Position numbers and translations under genes: made by a program. Shown in pieces: positions 5,940-64,000 of a DNA stretch of 64,000 nucleotides (the stretch's first letter is position 1; each line of letters opens with the position of its first letter). Origin of the DNA: Frigoribacterium sp. CFBP 13712 (lineage in GTDB: Bacteria > Actinomycetota > Actinomycetes > Actinomycetales > Microbacteriaceae); the NCBI RefSeq assembly GCF_014842255.1, contig NZ_JACYVH010000003.1, forward strand, positions 329,223-393,222. The letters run 5' to 3'. The notes beneath the pieces are model-generated. The model ran no database searches. It had not been told where the DNA came from and saw only the letters and a list, made by a program, of their open reading frames with translations.

Positions 5940-6010
5940 GCGATCCGCTCCGGGCCATCCGCGCTAGGGGATCTGCTCTAGGCGATCCGCTCTAGGCGTT
6001 CCGCTCCAGG
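5928..6010. repeat. Short tandem repeats spanning a stop codon
   Basis: About four imperfect copies of GCTCTAGGCGATCC-like units. The first copy includes the TAG stop of the preceding gene (5937-5939). The others follow in the intergenic DNA, consistent with local slippage duplication of a gene's 3' end. Confidence 0.6.
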
Positions 6011-6082
6011 GGGGCGGGCGTCGTCGGTGAGGCACGCCGCGCCTCCTCGGCTCGCGCCCAGTGAGGCTCCGAGACCAGGCGA

Positions 6083-6773: not shown

Positions 6774-6888
6774 GACCCGCGCCTCCTCGGTGTTCGCGTC
6801 GATGGTCAGAAGATGCCGTTCATCCGAGCCCGAACGGCATCTTCTGACCACTCGAGGCCGCCAGCACGGAACCGAGGAGGCGCGGGTC
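6774..6888. repeat. Composite nested inverted repeat (motif-flanked palindrome)
   Basis: The outer arms are 17-bp perfect inverted copies of the dispersed motif (6774-6790, GACCCGCGCCTCCTCGG; 6872-6888, its complement). Inside is a 19-bp perfect stem (6803-6821 / 6832-6850) with a 10-base loop; its arm reads TGGTCAGAAGATGCCGTTC. The element fills the gap between convergent genes, and its right arm overlaps the DUF427 stop codon. It could serve as a bidirectional terminator, but its architecture looks like a tiny element with terminal inverted repeats. Confidence 0.85.
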
Positions 6889-8082: not shown

Positions 8083-14950
<6,868 letters not shown>

Positions 14951-16352: not shown

Positions 16353-16380
16353 TTTGAGCCGAGGAGGCGCGGGTCGGCCG

Positions 16381-17052: not shown

Positions 17053-17077
17053 GCTGCGCCGCGCCTCCTCGGCGCCG

Positions 17078-23365: not shown

Positions 23366-23450
23366 GGTTCTTCCCATCTGGGGGCGGCACGCTCTCGGTC
23401 GTCGGTGACCGCGGGCTCGCACCGCGCCTCCTCGGCGACGGTACGCCCGC

Positions 23451-25174: not shown

Positions 25175-26857
25175 ATGACCCGACCCCACCCCCGGTGGAG
25201 CATCGCCGCGCGCCTGTTCGCCCTGCAGGTCGTCGTCATCGTGCTGATCGCCGCCCTCGCGACCGTGTGGACGATCCGCTCGGCGCGCACCGACGCCGAC
25301 TCCTCCGCCGCCCGCGCCTGCCTCGCGCTCGCCACCGGGATCGCCGACAACCCCTTCGTGCTCGACGCGCTGACGACGACCGATCCGAGTGCGCGCCTCC
25401 AGCCCTACGCCCTCGACCTCATGCGCGACACGTCGACCGACTTCGTCACGATCATGAGCCCCGACCGCACCCGTCTCACGCACCCCGACGCCGCCGAGAT
25501 CGGTCGGCCGTTCGTCGGCACGATCGAGCCCGCGCTCGCCGGGCGCTCGTTCACCGAGACCTACACGGGCACGCTCGGCCCGTCGGTGCGGGCCGTCGTC
25601 CCCGTGCTCGGCGCCGACGGCGAGGTCGTCGCCCTCGTCGCGGCCGGGGTCACCGTGTCGGCGATCGCCGACACCCTCGAGCAGCGACTGACGCTGGTGC
25701 TCGCGGCCGCCCTCGCGACCGTGCTGATCGGCGCCCTCGCCTCGTGGCTGCTCAGCCGCTACCTCCGTCGAGTGACGAGGGGCCGCGGCCCGGAGGAGCT
25801 CGGCCGCCTCTTCGACTACTACGAGGGCGTCCTCCACTCCGTGCGCGAGGGCCTGCTGCTCGTCGACGGACGCGGTCGCCTCACCCTCTGCAACGACCAG
25901 GCGGCCGAGCTGCTCGGTCTGCCGCCGGGCGGGGTCGACCGGCCGGTGCCCCTCGAGAGCCTCGACCTCCCCGACTCCCTCGCGCGCCTCCTCGTCGGGG
26001 GGCGCGTCGCCGTCGACGAGGTGCACGTGACCGACGAGCGCGTCCTCGTCGTCAACCAGCAGCACACCGGGACCCCGAGCCGAGGAGGCGCGGGTCGCGT
26101 CGTCCCGGCACGCACCCTCGGCACGGTGACCACGCTGCGCGACCGCACCGAGCTGACCGACCTCGCCGACGAGGTCGAGACGATGCGGACGCTCGCCGAC
26201 GCCCTGCGCTCGCAGACGCACGAGTTCTCGAACCGGCTGCACACGATCGTCTCGCTGATCGAGCTCGGTCGCGGCGACGAGGCCCTGCGGTTCGCGGCCA
26301 CCGGGCTCGACGTCGACCAGCGACTCGCCGACAGCCTCGTCTCGTCCGTCGCCGAACCGGCGCTCGCGGCGCTGCTGCTCGGCAAGTCCGCCCAGGCGCG
26401 CGAGCGCGGCGTCGACCTCGTGATCGACGTCGATCCCGCCCTCGGCACCGTCGACGTCGAGCCGCGCGACCTCGTGACGGTGCTCGGCAACCTGCTCGAC
26501 AACGCCCTCGACGCCGCCGACGGCACCGTGCGGATCACGGCGCGACGGGAGCAGAGCGAGGGCGGCGAGGCGTGCGAGGGCGGCGAGGGCGGCGGCGCCG
26601 TCGTCTTCACGGTCGCCGACGACGGGCCGGGGCTCGGCGACGTCGAGCAGGCGTTCCACCGCGGCTTCAGCACGAAGGAGCCCGGCAGCACCGGTCGGGG
26701 CGTCGGGCTCGCGCTCGTGCGGCAGGCGGTCTCCCGCGCCGGCGGCGGCATCACGGTGACCACGGGCACCGACGGGACCGCCTTCTCGGTGCGGTTCTCG
26801 GACGCCGCGACCGCCGACGCGGCCGCGACGCCCGACGACGGGGGTGGGCGTCGGTGA
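25175..26857 (+). CDS. Sensor histidine kinase, CitA/DcuS family
   Basis: A 560-residue membrane kinase. TM1 is at residues 12-31 ('FALQVVVIVLIAALATVW'). An extracytoplasmic PAS/Cache domain follows ('DFVTIMSPDRTRLTHPDAAEIG' in parts, typical of citrate and C4-dicarboxylate sensors), then TM2 near 172-192. A cytoplasmic PAS ('LLLVDGRGRLTLCNDQAAELLG') leads to the H box 'SQTHEFSNRLHTIVSL' (phospho-acceptor His) and the ATPase with 'NLLDNALDA', 'DDGPGLG' and 'GRGVGLALV'. GAGGAG precedes the ATG at seven bases. A motif copy at 26090-26106 is read 'SRGGAGRV' in a linker. It senses C4-dicarboxylates or citrate and signals to the overlapping regulator gene. Confidence 0.88.
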   Translation: MTRPHPRWSIAARLFALQVVVIVLIAALATVWTIRSARTDADSSAARACLALATGIADNPFVLDALTTTDPSARLQPYALDLMRDTSTDFVTIMSPDRTRLTHPDAAEIGRPFVGTIEPALAGRSFTETYTGTLGPSVRAVVPVLGADGEVVALVAAGVTVSAIADTLEQRLTLVLAAALATVLIGALASWLLSRYLRRVTRGRGPEELGRLFDYYEGVLHSVREGLLLVDGRGRLTLCNDQAAELLGLPPGGVDRPVPLESLDLPDSLARLLVGGRVAVDEVHVTDERVLVVNQQHTGTPSRGGAGRVVPARTLGTVTTLRDRTELTDLADEVETMRTLADALRSQTHEFSNRLHTIVSLIELGRGDEALRFAATGLDVDQRLADSLVSSVAEPALAALLLGKSAQARERGVDLVIDVDPALGTVDVEPRDLVTVLGNLLDNALDAADGTVRITARREQSEGGEACEGGEGGGAVVFTVADDGPGLGDVEQAFHRGFSTKEPGSTGRGVGLALVRQAVSRAGGGITVTTGTDGTAFSVRFSDAATADAAATPDDGGGRR

Positions 26858-27582
26858 CCCGCGCCTCCTCGGGGCCCGGGCTCGAAGCCCCGGTCGCGGA
26901 CGTCCGGGTGCTCGTCGTCGAGGACGAGCCGCTGACCGCCGAGGCGCACGTCGCCTACGTCGGCCGCGTCGACGGCTTCGTCGTGGCGGCCACGGCCCAC
27001 GACGGGCGAGAGGCCCTCGATCGGCTCCGCGACGACCCCTCGATCGACCTCGTGCTGCTCGACATGAACCTGCCCGACACGCACGGCATCGCCCTCTGCC
27101 GTGCCCTGCGCGCTGCGGGGTCCACCGTCGACGTGATCGCGGTCACGGCCGTGCGCGACGTCCAGGTCGTCCGCGCCGCCGTCTCGCTCGGCATCGTGCA
27201 GTACCTGATCAAGCCGTTCACCTTCGCGACGTTCGCCGAGCGCCTCGAGGGGTACCGCACGTTCCGGTCGTCGCTGACGCCCGACGGCGGACTCGTGACC
27301 CAGGGCGACGTCGACGCGGGGCTCGCGACCCTCCGCACGACGACGGCGCCCGCGCTCGGCAAGGGCCTCTCGCCCACCACGCTCGATCGGGTCGTCGCGG
27401 TGCTGCGCGGCGGACCCGACCCGTGGACCGCGGAGGCGCTGGCCGGGTCGACGGGGGTCTCGCGCGTCACGGCGCGCCGCTACCTCGAGCACCTCGAGAC
27501 CGCCGGCCTCGTGCGCCGCGACCAGCGCTACGGCTCGCCCGGGCGGCCCGAGAGCACGTACCGGTGGCTGGGGCGCCGGTGA
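26854..27582 (+). CDS. Response regulator, CitB/DcuR family
   Basis: A 242-residue regulator. The receiver domain (about residues 14-135) has the acidic pocket 'VVEDE', phospho-acceptor Asp in 'LVLLDMNLPDTHG', the Thr of 'VIAVTAVRD' and Lys in 'LIKPF'. The C-terminal winged HTH 'DPWTAEALAGSTGVSRVTARRYLEHL' is typical of DcuR/CitB. The GTG start overlaps the kinase stop (GTGA). Right after the start codon comes a full motif copy (26856-26872), read TRASS, giving the protein an extra N-terminal tail ahead of the receiver domain. It probably activates dctA across the divergent intergenic region. Confidence 0.88.
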   Translation: MTRASSGPGLEAPVADVRVLVVEDEPLTAEAHVAYVGRVDGFVVAATAHDGREALDRLRDDPSIDLVLLDMNLPDTHGIALCRALRAAGSTVDVIAVTAVRDVQVVRAAVSLGIVQYLIKPFTFATFAERLEGYRTFRSSLTPDGGLVTQGDVDAGLATLRTTTAPALGKGLSPTTLDRVVAVLRGGPDPWTAEALAGSTGVSRVTARRYLEHLETAGLVRRDQRYGSPGRPESTYRWLGRR

Positions 27583-27667: not shown

Positions 27668-29287
27668 TCAGCGCACGGTGATCGTGTGCTCGTCCCAGCC
27701 CTCGGCGCCGTTCGGGGCCGGGGGCAGCGGCGTCTCCGACTGCGTGACGCCGTCGGCACCCGTGGCCCGCACCTGCACGGTGTGGTCGCCCGGCGTGGCG
27801 TCCCAACGGTGGACCCACTGCACCCAGGTGTCGGCCGAGACCGACTCGGCCAGCTCGGCGGCGACCCAGGCCCCGCCGTCGATCCGCACCTCGACGCCCG
27901 AGACCCCCGTGTGCGGATGCCAGGCCACCCCGGCGATCGGCACCCGGCCGGCGTCGACCGACGCGCCCGCCTTCGGCGTATCGATGCGCGACTCCAGCTT
28001 GACCGGCCCGAGGGCGTCCCAGCCGCGCGGCGTCCAGTAGCCCTCGGTGTCGGCGAACCGGGTGACCTCGAGGTCGACGACCCACTTCGTCGCCGAGACG
28101 TAGCCGAACAGCCCCGGCACGACCATCCGCACCGGGAACCCGTGCTGCTGAGGCAGGGGCTCGCCGTTCATCCCCACGGCCAGGATCGCGTCGGTCCCGT
28201 CGTCGACCAGCACGGACAGCGGCGTGCCCGCGGTGAACCCGTCGCTGCTGGTCGAGAGCACCATGTCGGCGCCGCTCTGCGGACCGGCCCGCTCGAGCAG
28301 GGCGCGGATCGGGTAGCCGAGCCAGAGCGCCGTGCCGATCAGGTCGCCGCCGACCTCGTTCGACACGCAGCTGAGGGTCGCGTAGTGCTCTTCGAGGGGC
28401 AGGGCGAGCAGCTCGTCGAACGAGATCTCGATCTCGCGGTCGACGAGACCGTGGATCCGCAGACTCCATTCGGCCGGGTCGATCGAGGGCACCTGCAGGG
28501 CGGTGTCGATGCGGTAGAAGTCGGCGTTCGGGGTGACGTACGGCGTGATGCCCTCGACGTCGAGGGAGGCGCCGGCCGGCACCGCGGGAGCGGCCTGCGC
28601 CGGCGCGGGCAGGGTCAGGGCGTCGCGGAGCGCCCCGACGTTCGCCCGGGTCGCGTTCACCAGACGGGCGCCGGTGCCGACGACGACGGACGCCGCACCC
28701 ACGGCGATCGCCATCACCAGGAACCCGCGGCGCTCGAGCCCGGGGCCGAGCAGCGGCGGTTCGGGCACGGTCGCGGCGGCCCAGCCCGGCTCGGTCGAGG
28801 CCTCCCAGCGGTGCAGGCGCGTCATCAGCGCGGTGAGGACGACCAGCGACACGACGGTGCCGACGGCCGTCGGGGCGCCGTCGAGCGAGGTGCTGTCGGC
28901 CCGGGTCAGCACGGCGACGAGCGCGACGACCCCGCCGATGCCGAAGACGATCTTGCCGCCGGGCGGGCGGCGATGCTCGAGCACGCCGGCCCCCGCGGTG
29001 ATCGCGACGAGCAGCACGCCCATCAGCACGAAGAGGGCCACCTTGTCGCCGGTGCCGAACAGCGACACCATCAGGTTCTTGACGGCCGCGGGGGCCAGGT
29101 CGATCGCGGCCGAGCCCACGCCGAACAGCGGGCTGCCGCCGGCGCCGGTGACCCACGCCACGGCCTCGGCCGACGCGAGGAACGCCGTCACCGACACGAC
29201 GCCGGCCAGAGCGGCCCAGGCCGAGGAGGCGCGGGTCGTCATCCCGACGCCGGCGGGACGGGGCGGGGACTCCAGACGCACGGACAT
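27668..29287 (-). CDS. Molybdopterin-dependent oxidoreductase (sulfite-oxidase fold) with membrane anchor
   Basis: A 539-residue protein. Four to five hydrophobic segments occupy residues 25-200. A sulfite-oxidase-type domain lies outside the membrane: 'GITPYVTPNADFYRIDTAL', 'LRIHGLVDREIEISFDELLAL', the Mo-ligand Cys in 'YATLSCVSNEVGGDLIGTALW', and 'FPVRMVVPGLFGYVSATKWV'. A C-terminal Ig-like dimer domain ends at 'DEHTITVR'. Unlike YedY there is no twin-arginine peptide; export depends on the membrane segments. Substrates of this actinobacterial subgroup are unknown. A leaderless start is likely (TAGCCT six bases before ATG). A motif copy is read 'TTRASSAW' in the N-terminal tail. Confidence 0.85.
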   Translation of the reverse strand: MSVRLESPPRPAGVGMTTRASSAWAALAGVVSVTAFLASAEAVAWVTGAGGSPLFGVGSAAIDLAPAAVKNLMVSLFGTGDKVALFVLMGVLLVAITAGAGVLEHRRPPGGKIVFGIGGVVALVAVLTRADSTSLDGAPTAVGTVVSLVVLTALMTRLHRWEASTEPGWAAATVPEPPLLGPGLERRGFLVMAIAVGAASVVVGTGARLVNATRANVGALRDALTLPAPAQAAPAVPAGASLDVEGITPYVTPNADFYRIDTALQVPSIDPAEWSLRIHGLVDREIEISFDELLALPLEEHYATLSCVSNEVGGDLIGTALWLGYPIRALLERAGPQSGADMVLSTSSDGFTAGTPLSVLVDDGTDAILAVGMNGEPLPQQHGFPVRMVVPGLFGYVSATKWVVDLEVTRFADTEGYWTPRGWDALGPVKLESRIDTPKAGASVDAGRVPIAGVAWHPHTGVSGVEVRIDGGAWVAAELAESVSADTWVQWVHRWDATPGDHTVQVRATGADGVTQSETPLPPAPNGAEGWDEHTITVR

Positions 29288-29675: not shown

Positions 29676-30839
29676 ATGATCCCCGACGCCGCTCATCCCG
29701 TCGTTCCGATGCTCGCGAAGGCCGTCGCCGAGGTGCCCGAGCCCGACTCGGTGCCGGGCGGGTTGTCGTACGAGCCGAAGTGGGACGGCTTCCGCGGCAT
29801 CGTCTACGCCCGATACCTGGACGCGGACCAGCCCGGCGGAGCGACCGACCCCGGCGGAGAGACGGACTCCGGCGGTGCGGCCGAACCAGGCACCCCGCAC
29901 GGCGGCACCGGCCGCCGCCCCCTCGAGATCGAGATCGGCAGCCGCGGCTCGAAGACGCTGACCCGGTACTTCCCCGAGCTGGTCGCGTCGCTCGCCGAGC
30001 TGCTGCCCGGTCCGTGCGTGCTCGACGGCGAGATCGTCGTCCGCACCGGCGAGCCGGGTCGCGAGCGGCTCGACTGGGAGGCGCTCGGTGCGCGGATCCA
30101 CCCCGCGGAGTCCCGGGTCGCCACCCTGTCGGTCGAGACCCCCGCCCTCTTCGTGGCCTTCGACCTGCTGGCCCTCGGTGACCGAGAGCTCGTCGACGCG
30201 CCCTTCGGCGAACGACGCGCCCTGCTGGTCGAGACCGTCGGCGGAGGCGACGGCACCGGGCCGCTGCACGTCAGCCGCACCACCGACGACGTCGATCTCG
30301 CCCGACGCTGGCTCGCCGAGTTCGAGGGCGCCGGGCTCGACGGGGTCGTCGCGAAGCCCCTGGACGCCCCGTACTCCCCCGGCAAGCGCACCATGCTGAA
30401 GATCAAGCACCACCGCACGGCCGACGTCGTCGTGCTCGGCTACCGGGTGCACAAGAGCGGAGCCGGGGTCGGGTCGCTGCTGCTCGGCCTGTTCGACGCC
30501 GACGGCGAGCTGAGGAACGTAGGAGGCGCGTCGGCGTTCTCCGACGCCCGTCGCCTCGAGCTCGTGACCGAGCTGGAACCCCTCGTGGCCCGCGACGCCG
30601 ACGGCGGTGTGTCGCACGCCGAGACGGAACGGAGCCGGTTCTCGTCGGGCAAGGACGTCTCGTACGTGCCGCTCCGGCCCGAGCGGGTCGTCGAGGTCCG
30701 CTACGACCAGATGGAGGGGTCGCGGTTCCGCCACACGGTGCAGTTCGCCCGCTGGCGGCCCGATCGCGACGCCCGCTCGTGCGGCTTCGACCAGCTGGAG
30801 GTGCCCGCCGCGTACGACCTCGGGGACGTGCTCGGGTAG
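29676..30839 (+). CDS. ATP-dependent DNA ligase (LigC-type)
   Basis: A 387-residue stand-alone ATP-dependent ligase. The adenylated lysine lies in 'EPKWDGFRG', motif III in 'VLDGEIVV', motif IV in 'GLDGVVAK', motif V in 'MLKIKHHRTADVVVLG'. The OB-fold domain follows, ending in 'HTVQFARWRPDRDARSCGFDQLEV'. Size and sequence fit mycobacterial LigC rather than the ligase module of LigD. A Gly/Asp-rich insert (about residues 48-78) splits the adenylation domain. The neighbouring convergent gene encodes a Prim-Pol, so the two likely act together in gap-filling repair. No Ku gene is in the window. The start is set at ATG 29676. Confidence 0.85.
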   Translation: MIPDAAHPVVPMLAKAVAEVPEPDSVPGGLSYEPKWDGFRGIVYARYLDADQPGGATDPGGETDSGGAAEPGTPHGGTGRRPLEIEIGSRGSKTLTRYFPELVASLAELLPGPCVLDGEIVVRTGEPGRERLDWEALGARIHPAESRVATLSVETPALFVAFDLLALGDRELVDAPFGERRALLVETVGGGDGTGPLHVSRTTDDVDLARRWLAEFEGAGLDGVVAKPLDAPYSPGKRTMLKIKHHRTADVVVLGYRVHKSGAGVGSLLLGLFDADGELRNVGGASAFSDARRLELVTELEPLVARDADGGVSHAETERSRFSSGKDVSYVPLRPERVVEVRYDQMEGSRFRHTVQFARWRPDRDARSCGFDQLEVPAAYDLGDVLG

Positions 30840-30994
30840 GCGCGCCGCGCCTCCCCGGGGGGGGGGGCGGGACTCCTCGGCTCCGCGCGCCTCCTCTGTT
30901 GCCGAACCGCGCCTCCTCGGCTCCGCGCGCCTCCTCGGGAGGCGACCCGGGCCTCCTGGGCTCCGCGCGCCTCCTCGGCCCGGTAGCGGGCGGG
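30840..30994. repeat. Cluster of dispersed-motif copies between ligase and Prim-Pol genes
   Basis: The 155-bp convergent gap is built almost wholly of GCGCCTCC-containing units, at least five copies, several inside the phrase GGCTCCGCGCGCCTCCTCGG. A homopolymer run of about ten G (30857-30867) follows the first copy. This is one of three clusters of the motif in the window. Confidence 0.8.
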
Positions 30995-32229: not shown

Positions 32230-32595
32230 ATGAGCAGCTCTCGCGAGTCCAAGGGTCCTCGGGTCGAGCGGGGAGATGCGGAGCTGACCCGCGCCTCCTT
32301 GGTGCTCGGTCTTCCTCCGACGATGGTCCCCGCGCTGGTGCGCCGGGCTGTGCAGACGAGCCCGTCGTTCACCGTGACCAGCGTCGACGACGACGGGGCC
32401 GTGCTGTCTCGCCGGTCGGCGACGGCGACGGGTGACGTCGCGTTCCGACTGACGTTCACGGCGGTCGACGGCGGGACGCGCGTCGATGGCGAGCTGCGGC
32501 CCCCGACGGGGACGATCGGCGCCTCGGTCAAGCGTCGCGACGACGATGCGACCGCCCTCTTCGAGGCCCTGGCTGCCGCCGCCGGCCCCTTCTGA
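32230..32595 (+). CDS. Small conserved protein of unknown function
   Basis: A 121-residue protein without membrane segments. After a polar N-terminal third it shows an alternating pattern, 'PSFTVTSVDDDGAVLSRRSA', 'AFRLTFTAVDGGTRVDGELR' and a closing helix 'DATALFEALAAAA', which resembles a small START/polyketide-cyclase-like sandwich but is too short to be sure. A motif variant at 32286-32302 is read 'LTRASLVLG' in frame. It probably has a leaderless message of its own. The large tandem-palindrome array begins 26 bp after its stop. Confidence 0.55.
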   Translation: MSSSRESKGPRVERGDAELTRASLVLGLPPTMVPALVRRAVQTSPSFTVTSVDDDGAVLSRRSATATGDVAFRLTFTAVDGGTRVDGELRPPTGTIGASVKRRDDDATALFEALAAAAGPF

Positions 32596-32992
32596 GCGAG
32601 CCTCCGGCCCGCCCTCGCCCGAGTGGTCAGAAACCGCCCTTCGGCGCGCCACGAAGGACATCTTCTGACCAATCACGCACCCGGCGACGCGGACGCCCGC
32701 GCACACCGCCCGGCTGACGCCCACCCCCGAGCTCGAGTGGTCAGAAACCGTCCTTCCGCGCGCGACGAAGGACATCTTCTGACCACCCACGCACCCGGCG
32801 ACGCGGACGCCCGCACTCCGCCCGGCTGACGCCCGCCCCCGAGCTCGAGTGGTCAGAAAACGCCTTTCCACGCGCCGCGACGGACATCTTCTGACCAATC
32901 AAGCACGCGCGAGCGCGAGCACGAGCGTGAGCGCGAGCGCGCCCGAGCACGACCACGAGCACCCGCCGGCGCCGCCCGTCAGCAGGCGCCCC
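32596..32992. repeat. Tandem array of family A palindromes (period 112-114 bp)
   Basis: A 397-bp gap with no gene. Units start at 32621, 32735 and 32847. Each opens with GAGTGGTCAGAAA and closes its hairpin with ACATCTTCTGACCA; the arms are imperfect over about 19 bp. Hairpins are joined by conserved spacers (CGCACCCGGCGACGCGGACG and GAGCTCGAG). The third unit is truncated after its hairpin, and is followed by a GAGCGC/GAGCAC-rich low-complexity stretch (32904-32965). The hairpin core matches the palindrome at 6803-6850. Confidence 0.85.
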
Positions 32993-36489: not shown

Positions 36490-39120
36490 TCACGACCGCG
36501 CGTCGACGGGATCCCCCTCGCGCGCCTCCTCGGGTCCGACGATCCAGGTGTCCTTCAGCTCGCCGCCCTGCTCGGCGGTCACCACCATGCTGCCCTCCGG
36601 GGCGACCCGGGTCAGGGCCAGGTCGGCGAGCGCGCTCTCGCCCTCGCCGAGCCCGATGAGGTGCACGAAGCAGCGCAGGTCGACGTGCCGCGGCTGCAGC
36701 CCCGTGGCGGTGAGGGTGGGGTGCGACGACAGCTGGACGACCTCCTGGGCGACCCAGTGCGCGGGGTCGGCGGCGATGGCGGCCCGACGCGCGCCGACGG
36801 CCGCGGCGGAGGCGGACGGCCCGATCAGCACCCCGTGCCCTCCTCGGCCGTCGACGGGCTTGGTGACGAGCTCGCCGACCCGTTCGAGCACCGAGACCCG
36901 CTCGGCCGGGTCGCCCGGGCGGTAGGTCGGCACCGATTCGAGCAGGGGCTTCTCGCCGAGGTAGTAGGCGATGAGGTCGGGCACGGCGCAGTACATCGAC
37001 TTGTCGTCGGCGAGACCGGTGCCGGGGGTGTTCGCGAGCACGACTCCCCCGCCGGCGGCCGCGTCGATCAGGTGCTCGCCGAGCCGGTCGTCGTCGGGCG
37101 ACGCCGCGTCGATCAGCTCGCCGTCGAGGCGCACGTACAGGGCGTCGATCACCGTGCCGGTCGCCCGCTCGACGACGAGCCCGTCGCGCACGATCAGGTC
37201 GCCCGGTCGCACGAGCAGCAGCCCGGCGCCGTCGGCCAGCACCCGGTGCTCGTACCAGCCCGAGCTGCCCGGTCCGTCGCTGAGCAGCGCCGCGACGCGC
37301 TCGCGGTCTGCATCGCGGTCGCCGCCCAGGTCGCCATCCCGGTCGCCTGCGAGGTCGCCGTCGACGGAACGAGGAGGCGCGGCGTGCGCCAGCAGCGTCC
37401 GTCGCAGCATCGGGAACACGGTCGTCGGGTCGAGCAGCCCGGCCGGTCGAGGGGCGTCGGGCACGACCGCGTCGAGCATCGCGCGGACGGCGAGCGAGAA
37501 GGCGGCGCCGCCCGGCGAGCGCACGGTGTCCTCGAGCACCCGCCACGAGCCGAACTCGGTGCGGACGAGGTCGAACCCCTGGAGGGGCGCGCGGACGACG
37601 TCGGCCGGCAGCCGGGTCGCCTCGTCGCGCCAGCCCGAGGCGCCGACCACCTGGTGCTCGGCGAGGACGCCGTCGGCGACCACCCGGCGCTCGCCGTACG
37701 CGTCGCGGAGGAACGCCTCGATGGCCCGGGCGCGCTGGGTGAGCCCCGCCTCGAGTCGCGCCCACTCGTGCCGACCGACGACGCGGGGCACGAGGTCGCC
37801 GCGGAACTCGCGTTCGTGACCGTCGACGACGGGGCCGATCCGCGCCTCCTCGGCCCAGCGGTCCCGGTGGGCGACGCGCTCGCGGAGGCCCTCCGCGCCG
37901 AGGTCGACGAAGAAGGCGGCGATGTCGGCGTAGGCGGCGCGGGGCTGCAGCCCGGGCCCGATCGCCTCGTCTCCGGCCCGGAGCCGGTAGCCGGTCAGGG
38001 TCGGCACGGCGGCGCGGCGCCCGGCGGCGGGGCCCCGGGTCTCGTCGAGCACCTGCGCCACGACGTCGTCGAGCTCGCCCCGTTCGGCGAAGGCGGCGCG
38101 TTGCCGGTCGGCGCTGTTGCCGCGGGCGAGGGTGGCCTCGGCGAGGTCGCGCACGTCGTCGTAGTCGCCGAGCTCCTCCAGCTGGGGCCGGAGGTGCTCG
38201 ACGAGCGCGCGGACGGCGTCACGGGCCGGCAGGCGCGACGGGTGCGCGTCGAGGTCGAGCAGCTCGCCCGAGAGGCCCGCCCGCGCCGCCTGCCACATCG
38301 CCGCGCGGTGCAGCGGCTGGGCGCGGAGCTCGTAGGGCCGGTCGGCGAGCACGTCCAGCTCGGCGTGCCGGACGGCCGCCCGGTACAGCCCGGCGATCAG
38401 CACGGCGTCGTCGACGAGCGGGCAGGCGTCGCAGGTGCGCAGCTCGAGGGTCGGCGCGTGCGAGGACGGCCGCACGTCGAAGTAGGCCATCTTCGCGTCG
38501 GCGATGACGCCCGAGGCGATGAGGTCGTCGAGCAGGCGGTCGTACTCGGAGGCGTCGCGCATCGGACCGGTGGCGCCGGCGCTCGGCCAGCGCTGCCAGA
38601 TGATCGATCGGATGCTCGCGTAGCCGGTGTCCTGTCCGTTCCAGAACGGCGAACTCGCCGACAGGGCCAGGAGGGCGGGCAGCACGGGGGCAACGCGACC
38701 GGCGATCCGCACGGCGACGTCGCGATCGGCGACCCCCACGTGGATCTGCAGCCCGCAGATCAGCTGCTCGTCGACGAGCAGTCGGTACTGCTCGTGCATG
38801 CGCCCGTAGCGCCCGGTGGGGGTCAGCTCGAAGTCGGCGAACTCCGACCGGGGCGCCGTGCCGACGGCGGCGACGGCGAGACCCTCGGCGGCGGTGACCT
38901 CGGCGACCTCGCGGCGCAGCTCGACGATCTCGCGACGGAGGTCGCTCAGCGTCCGCACGACGGGCACGTTCGTCTCGATGGTCGAGCGCTGCAGCTCGGC
39001 GCCGAACCGGTCGGCGGGCAGGCGGCTCAGCAGGTGCGGCGCCCTCGTCGACAACCGCCCCGTGGCGACGTCGATCAGATGCAGCTCCTCTTCGGCCCCG
39101 AGCGTCAACTCCGCAGTCAT
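36490..39120 (-). CDS. GCS2-type carboxylate-amine ligase fused to circularly permuted ATP-grasp enzyme
   Basis: An 876-residue bifunctional protein. Residues 1-380 are a GCS2/YbdK-type glutamate-cysteine-ligase fold ('LTLGAEEELHLIDVATGRL', 'TIETNVPVV', 'LICGLQIHVGVADRDVAV', 'PTLELRTCDACP'). Residues from about 395 are a circularly permuted type 2 ATP-grasp ligase ('PRVVGRHEWARLEAGLTQRARAIEAFL' in parts, 'HQVVGASGW', 'LANTPGTGLADDKSMY', 'VTKPVDGRGGHGVLIGP'). Both halves join a carboxylate to an amine with ATP, so one polypeptide may make a small peptide-like product. A leaderless start is likely (TAGGGT six bases before ATG). Motif copies encode 'WAEEARIG' and 'PEEAREGD'; a DGD-repeat lies at about residues 595-612. 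Confidence 0.82.
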   Translation of the reverse strand: MTAELTLGAEEELHLIDVATGRLSTRAPHLLSRLPADRFGAELQRSTIETNVPVVRTLSDLRREIVELRREVAEVTAAEGLAVAAVGTAPRSEFADFELTPTGRYGRMHEQYRLLVDEQLICGLQIHVGVADRDVAVRIAGRVAPVLPALLALSASSPFWNGQDTGYASIRSIIWQRWPSAGATGPMRDASEYDRLLDDLIASGVIADAKMAYFDVRPSSHAPTLELRTCDACPLVDDAVLIAGLYRAAVRHAELDVLADRPYELRAQPLHRAAMWQAARAGLSGELLDLDAHPSRLPARDAVRALVEHLRPQLEELGDYDDVRDLAEATLARGNSADRQRAAFAERGELDDVVAQVLDETRGPAAGRRAAVPTLTGYRLRAGDEAIGPGLQPRAAYADIAAFFVDLGAEGLRERVAHRDRWAEEARIGPVVDGHEREFRGDLVPRVVGRHEWARLEAGLTQRARAIEAFLRDAYGERRVVADGVLAEHQVVGASGWRDEATRLPADVVRAPLQGFDLVRTEFGSWRVLEDTVRSPGGAAFSLAVRAMLDAVVPDAPRPAGLLDPTTVFPMLRRTLLAHAAPPRSVDGDLAGDRDGDLGGDRDADRERVAALLSDGPGSSGWYEHRVLADGAGLLLVRPGDLIVRDGLVVERATGTVIDALYVRLDGELIDAASPDDDRLGEHLIDAAAGGGVVLANTPGTGLADDKSMYCAVPDLIAYYLGEKPLLESVPTYRPGDPAERVSVLERVGELVTKPVDGRGGHGVLIGPSASAAAVGARRAAIAADPAHWVAQEVVQLSSHPTLTATGLQPRHVDLRCFVHLIGLGEGESALADLALTRVAPEGSMVVTAEQGGELKDTWIVGPEEAREGDPVDARS

Positions 39121-39181: not shown

Positions 39182-39236
39182 TTGAGGAGGCGCGGCGCCG
39201 AGGAGGCGCGGTGCCGAGGAGGCGCGGTGCCGGCGC
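39182..39236. repeat. Three tandem copies of the dispersed motif
   Basis: GAGGAGGCGCGG three times at a period of about 15 bp (first copy 39184-39195) in the 124-bp gap between the GCS2/ATP-grasp gene start and the TetR stop codon, all on the plus strand. Confidence 0.85.
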
Positions 39237-39940: not shown

Positions 39941-41458
39941 ATGTCTCGGACCTCTCCGCTCTCTGGCGACGCGACCCGCGCCTCCTCGTCCCGCCGCTGG
40001 TGGACCCTCACCACCGTCGCCCTCGCCCAGCTGATGGTCGTGCTCGACTCGACCGTCGTCAACATCGCGCTGCCCGCCGCCCAGGCCGACCTCGGCTTCT
40101 CGGACGGCGACCGGCAGTGGATCATCACCGCCTACTCGCTCGCCTTCGGCAGCCTGCTGCTGCTCGGCGGCCGCATCTCCGACCTGATCGGCCGCAAGCG
40201 CACCTTCATCGTCGGCCTGATCGGCTTCGCGCTCGCCTCGGCCCTCGGCGGCGCCGCCGACAGCTTCGGGCTGCTCGTCTTCGCGCGAGCGCTGCAGGGC
40301 GCGTTCGGCGCACTGCTCGCCCCCACCGCGCTCGCCGTGCTGACCACGACCTTCACCGTGCCGAAGGAGCGCGCCCGCGCGTTCGGCGTCTTCGGCGCGA
40401 TCGCCGGCGCCGGCGGGGCGATCGGCCTGCTGCTCGGCGGGTTCCTGACCGAGTACGCCTCCTGGCGCTGGAACCTCTACATCAACGTCGTCATCGCCGT
40501 CGTGGCCATCGCCGGCGCCGCGGTCTTCGTCTCGCACATCACCCGCACGGGCCCGCGCCCGAAGCTCGACGTGCCCGGCACCGTGCTCGTCTCGGCCGCG
40601 CTGTTCTCGCTCGTCTACGGCTTCTCGAACGCCGAGAACGAGGGCTGGGGCTCACCTCTGACCTGGGGGTTCCTCGTCGCGGCCGTCGTGCTGCTGACCG
40701 CCTTCGTGCTCTGGCAGCGCCGTGCCGAGCACCCGCTGCTGCCGATGTCGATCGTGCTCGACCGCAACCGGGGCGCCGCGTACAGCTCGGTCACCATCGC
40801 GGGTGCCGGCATGTTCGGCATCTTCCTGTTCGTCACCTACTACCTGCAGACCTCGCTCGGCTACACGCCGACGCAGACGGGTCTCGCGTTCCTGCCGATG
40901 ATCGGCATGCTCGTGCTCGCCGCGCAGCTGTCGACCAACATCTTCGTGCCGCGCTTCGGTCCGAAGATCATGGTGCCGTTCGGCATGACCCTCGGCGTGA
41001 TCGGCATGCTGCTGCTCACGAGGCTCGATCTCGACAGCGGCTACGCCGGCGACGTGCTGCCCGCTCTGATGGTGCTCGGCTTCGGCATGGGGTCGATCAT
41101 GCCGGCGTCGATCCAGACCGCGACCCTCGGAGTCGACCGCGAGCACGCCGGAGTCGCTTCGGCCATGGTCAACACCAGCCAGCAGGTCGGCGGATCGATC
41201 GGCACCGCGCTGCTGAACACGCTGGCGGCCACGGCCACGGCGAACTACCTGATCGACAGCACGTCGACGACGGGTGCGGTCGCCGCCGAAGCCGCGGTCG
41301 CGGGCTACGCGACCGCGTACTGGTGGGGAGCCGGGTTCTTCGCCGTCGGCGCCGTCATCGCCGCGCTGCTGTTCCGCCGACGTGCGCCCCAGGCGCCGGA
41401 CGAGGAGACGCGGGCCGGGATCTCGACGGAGACCGGGCCGGTCGCCGTCCCCGCCTGA
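39941..41458 (+). CDS. MFS multidrug efflux transporter, DHA2 family
   Basis: A 505-residue drug:H+ antiporter with about 14 predicted membrane segments. Motif D1 'LAQLMVVLDSTVVNIALPA' in TM1, motif A 'LLGGRISDLIGRKRTF' in the first cytoplasmic loop, and motif C-like 'GAIAGAGGAIGLLLGGFL' in TM5 are all present. It should expel amphipathic toxic compounds. It is controlled by the divergent TetR gene. The N-terminal cytoplasmic tail contains the dispersed motif, read 'DATRASSSRRWW' (39973-39988), directly after the leaderless start. A GC-rich hairpin follows the stop. Confidence 0.9.
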   Translation: MSRTSPLSGDATRASSSRRWWTLTTVALAQLMVVLDSTVVNIALPAAQADLGFSDGDRQWIITAYSLAFGSLLLLGGRISDLIGRKRTFIVGLIGFALASALGGAADSFGLLVFARALQGAFGALLAPTALAVLTTTFTVPKERARAFGVFGAIAGAGGAIGLLLGGFLTEYASWRWNLYINVVIAVVAIAGAAVFVSHITRTGPRPKLDVPGTVLVSAALFSLVYGFSNAENEGWGSPLTWGFLVAAVVLLTAFVLWQRRAEHPLLPMSIVLDRNRGAAYSSVTIAGAGMFGIFLFVTYYLQTSLGYTPTQTGLAFLPMIGMLVLAAQLSTNIFVPRFGPKIMVPFGMTLGVIGMLLLTRLDLDSGYAGDVLPALMVLGFGMGSIMPASIQTATLGVDREHAGVASAMVNTSQQVGGSIGTALLNTLAATATANYLIDSTSTTGAVAAEAAVAGYATAYWWGAGFFAVGAVIAALLFRRRAPQAPDEETRAGISTETGPVAVPA

Positions 41459-41560: not shown

Positions 41561-44500
41561 ATGGACCACACGGACGGCATGGGCGACGACGGGGCCGAGG
41601 CCGACTTCTCCCCTCTCACGCCGCTGATCGACGCCGTCGACATCATCCGACTCGTCGGGCCGATGGCTTTCAACCGGGCGAAGGAGTACGCGGCGACGGG
41701 TGCCGTCACCGAGACGTCGTGGCACCCCGCCGACGAACGCATCACCGGCACCGTGCAGGGCACCGAGGCCACCCCGTACCTCAGCGAGATCGTCGTGCGA
41801 GCCGGCCGGGGCGACTACAGCCGACCGCTGCGCAGCACCTGCAGCTGCCCCATCGGCGGCGACTGCAAGCACATCGCGGCCGTGCTGCTGCAGAGCAACA
41901 CCGCGGCCCTGCTGCAGCGACGCGGGGCGTCGAGCGGCGGGCTGCAGTCGGGTGCGCTGCCGTCGGGTGCGCTGCAGCCCGGCGGCCTGGCGGGGTCCGC
42001 CCTGGGCGAGATCACCTCGGCGTCGAGCGCAGGGTCGCCGACGGGTGCGGTCGACCCGGGCGACTGGCGATCGGTCGTGGGCTCCCTCGGTCGGTCGACC
42101 CGCGCCTCCTCGGCTCGGACGACCGGCATGGGGCTGCTGTTCGAGGTGCGCGACCGGGCTCCCGCCCCACGGCCGGGCGGCCGACGCCCGCCGGGCGGCA
42201 CGGGTCGATCGATGCCGCCCCGCCTCGGCGTGCGACCGGTCACGCTCAGTGCGACGGGCAACTGGGTCAGAGGCTCCCTGACCTGGACGTCGCTGCCGTA
42301 CCAGCTCAACCGTCTCGCCGTCGACCCCGATCAGCACGCCTGGTTCGGTCAGTTCGCGGCCCTGCACCGATCGGTCGTCGCGACCTACGTGCCCGGCGCC
42401 GCCGACTGGCTGCACCTCGACGACTTCGCCAGCCCGCTGCTCTGGCCGCTGCTCGCCGAGGCCTCGCGGCTGGGGGTGGCCTTCGTCACCGGCAAGCGCG
42501 CGACCGATGTGACGATCGGCGAGCAGGCGCAGGTGACCGTCGACGCGACCCGCGCCGCCGACGGGTCCGTGCTGCTAACGGCTGGCGTCTCGATCGACGG
42601 CTCGACCGGTCGCGCGCCGATCGCAGGGGTCGTCGGCGACCACGGGGTGTGGACGGCCGAGACGTCGCGGGCGCTGTCGGTGGTGCTGGCTCCGACGGCC
42701 GTGCCGCTCGGCGCCGACGAGCGTCGGCTGCTGACCCTCACCCCCGAGATCCTCGTGCCGGCCGCCGAGACCGCCGAGTTTCTCGCCGACTTCTACCCCG
42801 CCCTCCGCCGCAGCGTCGACGTGGTCAGCTCCGACTCGTCCGTCGAGCTGCCCGAGATCGTGCCGCCGAGCCTCCTGCTCACGGTCGGCTTCGAGAGGTC
42901 GCACACGCTGCGGCTCTCGTGGGGCTGGTCGATCGACGGCCGACGGCTGCCCCTCGACGCCCACGGTCCGGTGCCGGACCTCGACGAGCTCGCCGCGCCT
43001 CCTCGAGACACGGTTCTCACCGGGGTCGCGGCCGCCGAGTTCGCCGCCGAGGTGCTGCCGGCGCTCGAAGCCCGAGCCGACGTCGTCGTCGACCTCGTCG
43101 GCACGCGACCCGACTACCGCGAGCTCACCGACGAGCCGCATCTGACCGTGACGACGATCGAGACCGACAAGCGCGACTGGTTCGACCTCGGGGTGCTGGT
43201 CACCGTCGAGGGGCGCACGCTGCCCCTCGTGCCGCTCCTCACGGCGCTCGCCAAGCGGCAGCGCAAGATGCTGCTCGTCGACGGCTCGTACCTCTCGCTC
43301 GGCTCGCCCGTCTTCGACGAGCTGAAGCGTCTGCTCGACGAGGCGGCCTCGCTCGACGAGTGGGAGACCGGGCCGCGCATCAACCGGTACCAGGCGGGTC
43401 TCTGGGCCGAGATCGACGACCTCGCCGACGAGACGGTGCAGGCCGACCGGTGGCGCTCGGCCGTGGGCGGGCTCCTGGCGCTCGCCCAGCGGGGCGATGG
43501 CGATGGCGGTAACGACGGCGACGGGTCGAGGCTCGTCACGACTCCCCCGGCGGTGCCCGCGTCGATCGACGCGACCCTGCGGCCGTACCAGCGCGAGGGG
43601 TTCGAGTGGCTGGCGTTCCTCTACGAGCACGGGCTCGGTGGGGTGCTGGCCGACGACATGGGGCTCGGCAAGACCCTGCAGACCCTCACCCTGATGGCGC
43701 ACGTGCGCGAGACGGAGGACCTTGCCGAGCGGCGGCCGTTCCTCGTCGTGGCGCCGACCTCGGTCGTGGCGAACTGGGTGCTCGAAGCGGCCCGGTTCGC
43801 CCCCGGTCTCGTCGTGCACGGGGTGACCGAGACGGAGCGGAAGAGCCGGGGCGCGCTCGCGACCGCCCTCGACGGAGGCGCGGGGCCGGTGCCCGACGTC
43901 GTCGTCACCTCGTACGCGCTGTTCCGACTCGACGCCGCGGCCTACCAGGGGCACACCTGGGCGGCGCTCGTGCTCGACGAGGCGCAGTTCGTCAAGAACC
44001 GGGCGTCGCAGGCGCACCGTGTCGCCGTCGAGCTCGACACCCGGGTCGCGATCGCCATCACGGGCACTCCGCTCGAGAACAGCCTGATGGATCTCTGGTC
44101 GCTGTTCCGCATCGTCGCCCCGGGTCTGCTCTCGACGGCGAGCGCGTTCACCGAGAACTACGTCAAGCCGATCGAGGCCGGCGGGCGACCCGAGCACCTC
44201 GACCGGCTGCGTCGGCGGATCCGCCCGCTCCTCCTCCGCCGCACGAAAGAGCTGGTGGCGGCCGACCTGCCGGCCAAGCAGGAGCAGGTGCTCCGCGTCG
44301 ATCTGGCGCCCGCGCATCGCGAGCTCTACGACACGTTCCTGCAGCGCGAGCGCCTGAAGCTGCTCGACCTCATCGACGACCTCGACCGCAACCGCTTCAT
44401 CGTGTTCCGATCGCTGACGCTGCTGCGCATGCTCTCACTCGACGCGGCGCTGCTCGACGAGGCCTACGCCGACATCCCGTCGGCGAAGCTCGACCAGCTG

Positions 44501-45336: not shown

Positions 45337-45546
45337 GCGGTTCCTCCTGCGGTCGGAGGGTCGACGCTACGCGCGTCTCCCCCGTCTGCCCGCACCGCGC
45401 CTCCTCGGCAGCACCACGCCTCCGTGCTCGCCCCTCCCCGGTCTCCTCGCACCGCGCCTCCTCGGCTCCGGGGGTCGACAAGCGGTGCGGAGCGGGGGCA
45501 GGATGTCGTGGACATCCGTGCTCCACCGACGCACCCGGAGGTCGCC

Positions 45547-48950: not shown

Positions 48951-49171
48951 CGGGTCGCGGTGTCGCGCGCGGCGCGACGGGGGCAGGCGCAGGAGGCGCG
49001 GGTCGGGCGGGTCATCTCGGCTCCGTCTCGGGTGGGTCGCTTCCGCCGACCGTACCGACGCCGCGCCTCCTCGGTCCTGTCGATCCCCTGAGCGCGCGCA
49101 TCGCGGCCACCGCGCCGCGCGCTGCGCCCCGAGCCCCTCGCGCTGCGCCCCGCGCACCGCGCCCACCGCCC

Positions 49172-49234: not shown

Positions 49235-50446
49235 TCACGGGATGAGGCGAGCCGCCCGGTACCGCTCGAACAGGTCGACGAACGCCTGCTCGGTGCGGCG
49301 GTAGCGCGAGAAGCCGGCGTCGCGCGCCTTGCCCATGTCGGCGACGACCTCGAGGTCGCGGCCGAGGTCGGCGTCGGTGTGCCACCACGAGGCGACGCGC
49401 GCCAGCTCGGGTTCGACGAGGTCGTGCTCGGCGACGAGCTCGCGCCAGTCCTGCTCGAGCCCGGCCATCTGCTCCTCCAGCGGTCGCGGCGCGCCCTCAT
49501 ACCCCTCGACGAGGGCGGGGTCGATGCCGAGGTGCGCGGCGAGGCGGGGCCACATCCAGCGCCAGCGGAAGACGTCGCCGTTCACGATGTTGAACGCCTC
49601 GTCGCCGCCCGCGGGGTCGGTCCCGGCCCAGATCATCTGCTCGGCGAGCACGCCCGCGTCGGTCATGTCGACGAGCGAGTTCCACTGCGTCTCGCTGCCC
49701 GGGAACACGAACGGCCGCCCGAGGCGCTTCGTCAGCGCCGCCTGCACGGCGATGGTCAGCCCCATGTTCATGGCGTTGCCGACGGCGAACCCGATCACGG
49801 TGTGCGAGCGGTGCACCGACCAGGTGAAGCCCTGACGCTCGGCGGCGGCGAACAGCTCGTCCTCCTGCGCGTAGTAGAAGTTCGGGTAGTCGAGGCGCGG
49901 CTCGTCCTCGTGGAACGGCGTGTCGGGCATGACGCCCTTGCCGTACGCCTCGAACGGGCCGAGGTAGTGCTTCAGACCGGTCACGAGCGAGACGTGCTGC
50001 ACGGGGGCGTGCTCGAGGGCGGCGAGCAGATCGCGGACCATGCCGCCGTTCACCTCGATGTTCTCGGCCTCCGTGTCGCGCTTCTGCCAGGCGGCGAAGA
50101 ACACGTGCGTGGGCTGCACGTCGGCCAGGGCGGTCGCGAGGCTCTCGGCGCTCAGCAGATCGGCGGCGATGCCGGTGACCCCCGGAGCCGAGGAGGCGCG
50201 GCGCGACAGGGCGAGCACGTCCCATCCGTCGCGGGTCAGCTGCTCGACGAGCGCGGTGCCCGTGATGCCGCTCGCGCCCACCACGAGTGCGGTGCCGGGG
50301 CGGGCGCCCGGTGCGGTGGCGTCGTGCCGGGGCTCGACGGACTCGAGGGCGATGCTCTCGGGGGCGCCCGTCTCGGGGTCGCGGATGTCGCTCGTCGCGG
50401 GGTCGGTCTGCGGGCGGTCGGTCTGCGGGGTGCGGTCGTCGCTCAT
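49235..50446 (-). CDS. SDR-family NAD(P)-dependent oxidoreductase (PRISE-like)
   Basis: A 403-residue atypical short-chain dehydrogenase. The Rossmann motif 'ALVVGASGITGTALVEQLTRDGW' starts near residue 53, after a long polar tail. 'HVSLVTGLKHYLGPF', 'FYYAQEDELFAAAERQGFTWSVHRSHTVIG' (split) and 'FPGSETQWNSLVDMTDAGVLAEQMIWA' match the progesterone 5-beta-reductase/iridoid synthase-like (PRISE) group, with an FYYxQED in place of YxxxK. The reaction is probably reduction of an activated C=C bond with NADPH. A motif copy is read 'SRRASSAPG' after the second strand. The N-terminal tail DNA has a 13-bp tandem repeat. Confidence 0.78.
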   Translation of the reverse strand: MSDDRTPQTDRPQTDPATSDIRDPETGAPESIALESVEPRHDATAPGARPGTALVVGASGITGTALVEQLTRDGWDVLALSRRASSAPGVTGIAADLLSAESLATALADVQPTHVFFAAWQKRDTEAENIEVNGGMVRDLLAALEHAPVQHVSLVTGLKHYLGPFEAYGKGVMPDTPFHEDEPRLDYPNFYYAQEDELFAAAERQGFTWSVHRSHTVIGFAVGNAMNMGLTIAVQAALTKRLGRPFVFPGSETQWNSLVDMTDAGVLAEQMIWAGTDPAGGDEAFNIVNGDVFRWRWMWPRLAAHLGIDPALVEGYEGAPRPLEEQMAGLEQDWRELVAEHDLVEPELARVASWWHTDADLGRDLEVVADMGKARDAGFSRYRRTEQAFVDLFERYRAARLIP

Positions 50447-55210: not shown

Positions 55211-55703
55211 CGCCCACCCTCGCGGGCCCACCTCCGGCGCACATCCAACGGTGGGCAGAAAACGCCCCTCACCCACCACCGAAGGGCAACAACCGCCCAC
55301 CCTCGGGCGCGCCGCCTCCGACGGTGGGCAGAAAACGCCCCTCACCCACCGCCCAAGGGCACCAACCGCCCACCTCAGCGCGCCCGGCTCCGACGGTGGG
55401 CAGAAAACGCCCCGCACCCACCACCCAAGGGCAATATGCGCCCACCCTCGCGCGCCCGGCTCGGACGGTGGGCAGAAAACGCCCTTCGCTCACCGCCGAA
55501 GGGCACCAATCGCCCACCCTCGCGCGCTCAACCCCCGACGGTGGGCAGAAAACGCCGCTCGCTCACCACCGAAGGGCAATAAGCGCCCACCCTCGCGCGC
55601 CCGGCTCCGACGTTGGGCAGGAAACGCCCCTCCCTCACCGCCGAAGGGCACTTACCGCCCACCCTCCCGGGCCGGGCTCGACTCCGGGCGTCCGGCGCCG
55701 CGG
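55211..55703. repeat. Six-copy tandem hairpin array (period 71-73 bp)
   Basis: A 493-bp gap with no gene. Units start at 55251, 55324, 55396, 55468, 55541 and about 55612. Each begins GTGGGCAGAAAACGCCC and ends with AAGGGCA, five variable bases, then CGCCCAC; these ends pair, giving a hairpin of about 50 bases. Units are joined by a conserved CCTCGCGCGCCCGGCTCCGA-like spacer. Changes among copies keep the GTGGGC/GCCCAC ends. The mixed 71, 72 and 73-bp spacing excludes translation of the array. Confidence 0.88.
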
Positions 55704-56726: not shown

Positions 56727-56833
56727 ACGTCGAGCCTAGGGCGAAGCCGAGGAGGCGCGGCGCAGCACCCGGGCGCCAGGACGCACCGCACAGCTCAGGA
56801 GGGACGACGCCGGTGGCCTCGGATCGCACCTGC

Positions 56834-60472: not shown

Positions 60473-60535
60473 GACCCGCGCCTCCCCGGCCCGCGCCTCC
60501 TCGGCTCCCCGGCCCCGCGCCTCCTCGGCCCGGGC
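60473..60535. repeat. Three dispersed-motif copies in the nuclease-helicase promoter region
   Basis: Three GCGCCTCC-containing copies in 63 bp: GACCCGCGCCTCCCCGG, then two copies of CCCGCGCCTCCTCGG or near it. They lie about 25 bp upstream of TAGCGT (complement of 60442-60447), a -10 candidate for the nuclease-helicase gene. Confidence 0.8.
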
Positions 60536-63165: not shown

Positions 63166-64000
63166 GTGAACGAATCGTCAGGGCCCGACGACGCCCTGAG
63201 CCGTGACGACGTGCGCGTCGCGCACGAGGACGACCCCACGTGGGCCCTGCTCCGCAGCTACAACAGCCGCTGGATGCTCCCGCTCTTCTCCCGTCACCTC
63301 GAGCACGCCGAGGGGCCCGTCTCGGCCGACTGGTTCCACCAGCAGGTCGCGCAGGCCCTCGAGCTGAACGCGCTCGATCAGACAGCGCCGCATCAGACAG
63401 CGCCCGCCGAGACCGCGCCCGTCCGGGCCGGAGCCGAGGAGGCGCGGGTCGGCGACTCCGGGGCGACGCCCGCCCCCGAGACCCGCACCACCCCGGCCGA
63501 CTACTGCCGGAGCTGGGTCGACAGCCGGTGGCTGATCCGCACCCGCGCCTCCTCGGCGGACGACGACGGGGCACGCCACGGCGGCCCGAGCAGCACGACG
63601 ACCGGCACCTCCCCCGCGGCCGACGGTTGGGGCGCGCTCGGCGCCGCGCACCCGAGCGGCGCGGCGGCGGGGTCGGCCCCGACGCGCGCCTCGAGCCCGC
63701 CCCCGCGCGGCGAGGCTCGCGCGCAGTACCGGCTCTCGCCCCACGCGCTCAAGGCGCTGCGGATCGTGCGCGAGCTGGTCGAGCAGGACAACGCGGTGAG
63801 CGAGGCGAGACTCGGCAGCATCGCCCACGCCGTCGGTCAGCTCGCCGGTCTCGCCGACCCGAGCCGCGAGGCGCAGACCGCTCGGATCGACGAGCAGATC
63901 GCCGAGCTGCAGCGTCGCCGCGATCGCATCGAGCAGCATGGCACCGAACCGGTCAGCCCCGACGTCCTCAAGCGGCAGGTGCGCGAGGTGGTGCGGCTGA
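63166..64000 (+). CDS. jetA: DUF3375 protein JetA of a Wadjet system (3' end beyond window)
   Basis: The first 278 codons, open at the window edge. 'DPTWALLRSYNSRWMLPLFSRHL' opens the N-terminal domain and 'VSADWFHQQVAQAL' follows. From residue 188 the family core is clear: 'YRLSPHALKALRIVRELV', 'SEARLGSIAHAV', 'ARIDEQIAELQRRRDRIE'. DUF3375 is JetA, the kleisin-like (MukF/MksF-like) subunit of Wadjet, an SMC complex that extrudes and cuts circular plasmid DNA; jetB, jetC and jetD normally follow at once. Between the two conserved parts is a 115-residue low-complexity region carrying inverted copies of the dispersed motif (63434-63450, read EEARV; 63541-63556, read TRASS). The system is inferred from one partial gene. 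Confidence 0.75.
   Translation, partial: MNESSGPDDALSRDDVRVAHEDDPTWALLRSYNSRWMLPLFSRHLEHAEGPVSADWFHQQVAQALELNALDQTAPHQTAPAETAPVRAGAEEARVGDSGATPAPETRTTPADYCRSWVDSRWLIRTRASSADDDGARHGGPSSTTTGTSPAADGWGALGAAHPSGAAAGSAPTRASSPPPRGEARAQYRLSPHALKALRIVRELVEQDNAVSEARLGSIAHAVGQLAGLADPSREAQTARIDEQIAELQRRRDRIEQHGTEPVSPDVLKRQVREVVRL

Follow-up and report, generated by a model that had tools for sequence, protein, structure and literature searches.

The DNA under study (hereafter the window, meaning the whole stretch of 64 kb) closes within a gene of the JetA family (63166–63999, + strand), of which the 5' part is comprised and which runs on past the window. The gene model, obtained like all others in this work with our own codon-usage gene finder and with no annotation used, spans 278 codons before the window ends and matches PF11855 (DUF3375), a family that we take to be JetA, at 4e-67. 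Two copies of the 12-base word GAGGAGGCGCGG lie in frame in the linker regions of this gene, one at 63436–63447 (+), read as EEAR(V), and one at 63543–63554 (−), whose complement is read as (T)RASS. A first-pass annotation of this DNA had proposed that the word is written in frame into protein linkers as EEARV or TRASS and that this gene bears one copy of each type, and both statements are confirmed within the same gene model.

Exact copies of the word amount to 31 in the window, against 0.28 expected from 100 shuffles, and 17 of these are intergenic, so that the coding copies are a minority here. Apart from the JetA site, the EEARV frame is found between two glycosyltransferase domains (4159–4170, +) and, as EEARI, between GCS2 and ATP-grasp domains (37840–37851, −). 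The TRASS frame is found ahead of Bgal_small_N in LacZ (10761–10772, +), at the N-terminus of a response regulator (26859–26870, −), in the N-terminal part of a molybdopterin oxidoreductase (29223–29234, +), in the N-terminal tail of an MFS transporter (39976–39987, −), in an SNF2 interdomain region (42100–42111, −) and, as RRASS, within an NAD-epimerase-like domain (50190–50201, +). The remaining frames are PRLLD within the LacZ TIM barrel (11888–11899, +), RGGAG in a histidine kinase interdomain region (26082–26093, +), and AAPPR, both within an ATP-grasp domain (37371–37382, +) and in an SNF2 interdomain region (42993–43004, −). The proposed preference for linkers and tails holds, as 3 of the 14 coding copies in the window lie inside Pfam domains versus 9.4 expected (P=3e-4), the expectation being the domain coverage, with limits entered by hand and without a weaker second DUF3375 stretch in JetA. 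A QEARV peptide, which had also been listed as a motif site, is indeed encoded in the gene at 20715–22253, but the underlying DNA, CAGGAGGCGCGG at 21171, differs from the word by one base.

Single intergenic copies are located at 6037–6048 (−), 6777–6788 (−), 6874–6885 (+), 16361–16372 (+), 17059–17070 (−), 22342–22353 (+), 23422–23433 (−), 30907–30918 (−), 45395–45406 (−), 45452–45463 (−), 49061–49072 (−) and 56749–56760 (+), the remainder being three direct copies with a 16-base period (39184–39227, +) and a direct pair at 60491–60502 (−) and 60515–60526 (−). At two of these sites the relative G002 carries altered bases, namely a one-base variant in an ungapped motif at 16361 and two substitutions at 23422. 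Other repeats are present in the window. Inverted-repeat units TGGTCAGAA...TTCTGACCA, mostly between gene models, occur as a single copy at 6803–6861 and as three copies with a spacing of 112–114 bases at 32586–32909, and related units with TGGGCAGAAAACGCCC form four tandem copies of 72-base period at 55248–55680. A 14-base tandem repeat around CTCTAGGCGATCCG spans 5917–6014, covering and following the terminus of the gene model that stops at 5939, and a 40-base tandem repeat at 30839–30976 contains near-motif copies with GCGCGCCTCCTC together with the exact motif at 30907.

Genome-wide, the 12-mer is counted 692 times in 3.16 Mb, versus 3 for the reversed control word, and thus displays the strong over-representation across the genome that is expected of an uptake sequence. 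A 14-mer version was found in 432 kb as 82 exact and 61 one-mismatch copies (reversed word, 0 and 1), and the extended consensus derived from a sequence logo is gCCGAGGAGGCGCGG(g/c/t)(T/G)Cg. In this logo the strong conservation of the flanks ends about 20 bases out, and a longer conserved palindromic unit was not found. The output of an EM motif search reflected codon periodicity and was discarded.

Within genes, the word has one favoured phase per orientation, as had been claimed, with sense copies read mostly as EEAR and antisense copies mostly as TRASS. Considering the 51 coding copies among 104 copies of the 13-mer in the window and in C1:400–768 kb of the same genome, the sense phases are EEAR (17), RGGA (3) and RRR (0), and the antisense phases TRASS (22), PRLLG (5) and APPR (4). 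The suggestion that G/C-rich third positions are the cause of this preference is sufficient for the sense copies and fails for the antisense ones: codon frequencies predict EEAR for 96% of sense copies, the observed 17 of 20 being slightly below this value (P=0.03), whereas TRASS is predicted for 28% of antisense copies and found in 22 of 31 (P=8e-7). Third-position GC therefore accounts for EEAR alone. Seven of the eight RASS peptides in the window gene models are coded CGC GCC TCC TCG, the exception being at 63685. It may be that within genes mainly those frames persist which give harmless peptides (RASS, EEAR), and that the antisense excess arises from the sense orientation perhaps providing the mRNA with a ribosome-binding-like AGGAGG; indeed, AGGAGG outside the motif is also antisense-biased within genes (162 versus 114 sense), which is consistent with avoidance of ribosome-binding-like sequences in mRNA.

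The conservation of the word was analysed at the level of DNA in 94 coding sites of favoured phase from the window and the corresponding stretches of relatives, leaving out the C1 sites and the other phases. Among blocks whose four residues are retained, all 12 underlying bases agree in 441 of the 478 at the motif (92%), compared with 4149 of the 7718 neighbouring ones (54%); the bootstrap 95% confidence interval of the difference, resampled by site, is 0.35–0.42, and the expectation for identical blocks, matched to the same codons in the flanks, is 0.385–0.396. Restricted to sites of the window's own genome (10 sites), the figures are 44 of 48 versus 96 of 304. An exception is GCG in the EEAR frame, which is barely more constrained than elsewhere (0.70 versus 0.64). 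Since local alignment can favour the pairing of motif with motif, in addition to this same-residue comparison we considered gap-free contexts (576 of 1730 pairs), in which the motif columns are 0.95–0.99 identical and the 30 columns on each side 0.72–0.97. In all 13 genome pairs, orthologous 12-mers at the motif are more often identical than those of the flanks, as for example from G000 to G004, with 11 of 18 (0.61) versus 0.08; ortholog pairs from related species are non-independent, and resampling by site applies to the identical-block comparison only. The synonymous positions of the motif are constrained and the word is maintained at orthologous sites; the hundreds of copies per Frigoribacterium genome are one 12-letter word conserved as DNA. 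Such DNA-level maintenance at permissive positions, together with one favoured orientation in genes, is what is expected of uptake sequences. As the word is maintained as DNA and sited where proteins permit, the pentapeptides EEARV and TRASS that it spells are its passengers.

The resemblance to palindromic elements inserted into coding DNA in Rickettsia, which had been put forward initially, found no support, as species without the word have residues of the same length at the JetA and SNF2 sites and length differences are around zero. At the JetA TRASS site, RTRAS is present in 12 of the rows for 13 genus members, 5 with the exact word and 7 without it, and G003 differs. Conservation of the same residues in motif-free relatives had been named as the observation that would speak against insertion; the TRASS residues are kept without the word, but in species of the same genus and not of motif-free genera, so that the refutation is obtained in a weaker form. 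The JetA EEAR site has the word in 6 rows, the others having EEARP, EEAPP, EEAPV, EEALL, GEAPA or an unrelated stretch; the surrounding linker has many alignment gaps and is absent in G003. Here the linker itself may have been inserted, and the aligned sequences appear to rule out that EEA was brought in by the word. At the SNF2 TRASS position, G001, G003, G006 and G007 have different residues with unchanged length, and the length differs in G018 and G022, the two rows from outside the genus that could be used; this comparison comprises 12 of 22 loci, after setting aside 4 without a long ORF and 6 rows that were on the wrong strand or unaligned.

The same scenario results from ortholog pairs at large. 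Among the 1248 pairs that span a motif site, 716 are identical, 287 have ungapped substitutions (174 of them of one base) and 245 are gapped within the 12-mer, versus 1391, 4181 and 463, respectively, at random positions (pairs that do not span the site, 489 for the motif and 652 for the controls, were left out). In the 532 non-identical pairs the net length difference clusters around 0 (216 pairs); values of +12 to +18 occur in 41 pairs and values of −12 to −18 in 45. Gaps within the 12-mer affect 0.196 of motif pairs versus 0.077 of random pairs, and the gapped share of differing pairs is 245 of 532 versus 463 of 4644, an excess which is expected for linkers and spacers. Relative to the local flanks, gaps are rarer at the motif in 8 of 13 genome pairs and commoner in 5, and therefore some copies may arise or vanish through small indels. 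A unit insertion making the host gene longer, as expected of the Rickettsia type, is thus seen neither in JetA nor in SNF2 nor in the ortholog pairs.

As to its distribution, every one of the 16 genus genomes has 213–648 copies of the 13-mer, which reaches no more than 12 copies in any of 44 other genomes; for the 11-mer the range is 383–1152 in 10 genomes of the genus, with a maximum of 78 among 388 genomes from the rest of the family. The word is confined to Frigoribacterium. What its counts suggest to be a clade-specific second spelling, AGGAGGCGGTGG, occurs 100–127 times in G001, G007, G011 and G012 and 23–65 times in the other twelve genus genomes, with reversed controls at no more than 7 copies within the genus. 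In sister genera a different word, CGGATGCCG, exceeds its reversed control about 9–31 fold in genomes G016 (1692 versus 55), G023 (1276 versus 47), G024 (1217 versus 100), G021 (1110 versus 57), G017 and G018; it stays close to background in most of the family's genera with small genomes, and reaches at most about 2.7-fold in the searched genomes of other families. Its copies are mostly coding, and a small conservation test across sister genera gave 20 of 54 pairs versus 29 of 216 flanking 9-mers, five control words giving comparable values in two cases (8 of 28, 6 of 15), 0 of 14 in another and, for the last two, one pair each. It is possible that CGGATGCCG is a family-level analogue of the Frigoribacterium motif.

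Placement in the genome was analysed over 752 kb of the 3156 kb of the own genome, in which 84 of 170 copies are intergenic; for the 13-mer in the window and C1:400–768 kb, where 13% of the DNA is non-coding, the proportion is 53 of 104. Strand counts are 29+/32− in C1:1–320 kb, 31+/47− in C1:400–768 kb and 15+/16− in the window, so no strand polarity is seen across these 752 kb, which are stretches and not whole replichores. No consistent excess on one strand was found in the relatives' stretches, and a 17-base extended pattern in G007 has 24 sites (13+/11−) without clear polarity. An apparent polarity among the first 100 listed copies was an artefact of listing, and was dropped after reading the DNA. 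The spacing of copies is as random (CV 0.94 and 1.07), and their density correlates with GC content (Spearman 0.58, 42 bins). Motif pairs within 80 bases number 13 in the 752 kb, 7 direct and 6 inverted, 2 of the latter inside genes; at distances up to 35 bases the inverted and the direct pairs number 5 each, versus 1.5 and 1.3 expected after jitter, and 5 of the 6 inverted pairs are 23–29 bases apart, versus 1.5 expected after jitter. Direct tandem copies have a spacing of 16–59 bases. One inverted pair (C1:307718) lies between convergent genes, and no T-run was found after the inverted pairs of these 752 kb. At G000:C1:118955–118994 two inverted copies are found inside a long near-perfect palindrome, whose stem exceeds the motif. 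Of 54 intergenic copies in the window and C1:400–768 kb, 37 are closer to a gene 3' end (P=6e-4), and among those 37 the antisense orientation is found in 27 (P=0.008), a bias which leaves room for a role at the RNA level.

Taken as a whole, an abundant, unpolarised and apparently lineage-spelled word, conserved as DNA and placed at permissive positions, would fit uptake sequences better than the other classes considered. We thus give an even chance to the word being an uptake-sequence-like DNA tag, held by selection or drive acting on DNA, a function which is here inferred. Within such a mechanism, a receptor of the competence pilus or on the ComEA side would bind incoming DNA bearing the word, which would spread with each fragment that is taken up and recombined, and point-mutated copies would be replaced by tagged DNA of relatives. 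In the own genome, ComEA-like and ComEC genes are neighbours, and there is a single Tad/Flp-type locus, in which the TadE match falls under the curated cut-off. ComEC failed as a discriminator for the word, since 58 of 60 genomes have it, including 42 from outside the genus that lack the word. The same combination of ComEA/ComEC and Tad/Flp is reported for the transformable actinobacterium Micrococcus luteus (PMC6370729). Known uptake sequences are abundant, have no general orientation bias in the genome and have one orientation commoner in genes, according to PMC2346458; inverted pairs of them are common in Neisseriaceae (PMC3630211), and neisserial islands have reduced DUS density (PMC7371117).

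The likeness to the DUS of Neisseriaceae and the USS of Pasteurellaceae comprises a 10–12 base word, hundreds of copies on both strands, intergenic enrichment, coding copies at permissive positions, a prevailing orientation within genes, some inverted pairs and, possibly, spellings that differ by lineage. In contrast, the organism here is an actinobacterium, the sequence is another one, and inverted pairs are about half of the close pairs. The word may work like an uptake tag, and we do not class it as DUS or USS. Findlay and Redfield reportedly dealt with uptake sequences and proteomes in 2009. Against an uptake tag stand the inverted pairs being just 6 of 13 close pairs, the equal enrichment of direct ones and the absence of the T-run, as well as the random-like spacing, a variable density that tracks GC and the surplus of gaps within the 12-mer; direct pairs and the antisense bias at 3' ends are not accounted for by the mechanism. 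Extending the uptake interpretation, Microbacteriaceae might label their own DNA by genus-specific words of uptake type, Frigoribacterium using AGGAGGCGCGG and AGGAGGCGGTGG and several of its sister genera words similar to CGGATGCCG; such labelling would be of independent origin and read by Tad/Flp-pilus competence, a proposal that we make tentatively and consider rather unlikely.

Two further interpretations also invoke a signal in the DNA. It is conceivable, though on the doubtful side, that the word is bound by a chromosomal protein unrelated to uptake, such as a nucleoid, repair or transcription-termination factor, with selection acting on binding and coding copies lying where the peptide is harmless. 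Conservation at the DNA level, the preference of intergenic copies for gene 3' ends and their antisense orientation there would agree with this, as would the few hairpin-forming inverted pairs, of which one is between convergent genes. Against it, spacing is uneven, polarity is absent and about half of the copies are coding, and the putative clade-specific respelling at about 100 sites would presumably be unusual for such sites; for an ordinary operator, moreover, the copies favour the side away from promoters. The high copy number, the G-rich composition and the restriction to one genus are also compatible with a Chi-like recombination signal or an FtsK-orienting signal (KOPS), which are likewise abundant short G-rich words; these are polarised along the replichore, whereas the Frigoribacterium word is unpolarised in the examined stretches, as the strand counts given above indicate, which makes this explanation improbable.

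That the word is a short element, mobile or palindromic, which entered genes in frame in the manner of REP or of the palindromic elements of Rickettsia, is very improbable and largely refuted. The peptides do sit in low-complexity linkers, direct tandem copies exist and gaps within the 12-mer are in excess over random pairs; however, net length differences are near zero with no excess of +12 to +18 over −12 to −18, replacement at the JetA TRASS site and in SNF2 is of the same length, and a strong conserved flank is missing past about 20 bases. Rickettsia palindromic elements share in-frame coding copies in tolerant protein regions, but are far longer than a 12-mer and palindromic, unlike this word, for which unit insertion is not seen. 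A longer palindromic intergenic unit, as in REP/BIME with their cognate RAYT transposase, is not found in the logo either, about half of the own-genome copies being coding. HIP1 of cyanobacteria is also a very abundant short word within and between genes; it is a perfect 8-base palindrome, whereas the word described here is a directional 12-mer. Finally, a chance product of about 73% G+C and codon usage would agree with the EEAR frame and with the density tracking GC, but is refuted by the counts against shuffles and the reversed word, and also faces the near-background occurrence in 388 other family genomes, the TRASS excess and the constraint on synonymous positions, so that its probability is negligible.

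Described uptake sequences were found for Neisseriaceae and Pasteurellaceae in the parts of the literature consulted (PMC2346458, PMC3630211). Among the publications listed for uptake sequences in Actinobacteria, Microbacteriaceae or Frigoribacterium, none was seen to name this word; literature matches to the exact word seem unrelated by title and start of abstract, and exact-string searches for the 14-mer complement, GGATGCCG and CGGATGCC-type strings found none. If the uptake interpretation were true, it would represent an independent case in a high-GC actinobacterium, and one could then test, in a further lineage and with a different pilus, why some bacteria mark DNA as their own. Even with another function, hundreds of DNA-constrained words dictate short protein stretches genus-wide, a genome-level constraint that shapes proteomes.

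A last observation concerns G000:C1 at about 680–710 kb, where GC is down to 0.64–0.67 and codon use is atypical, possibly an acquired island; nine ORFs were scanned in it, four of them with Pfam matches. This stretch of 30 kb, partly of low GC, chosen post hoc and read against a density that tracks GC, has 1 copy of the word versus 7.6 expected (P=0.004).
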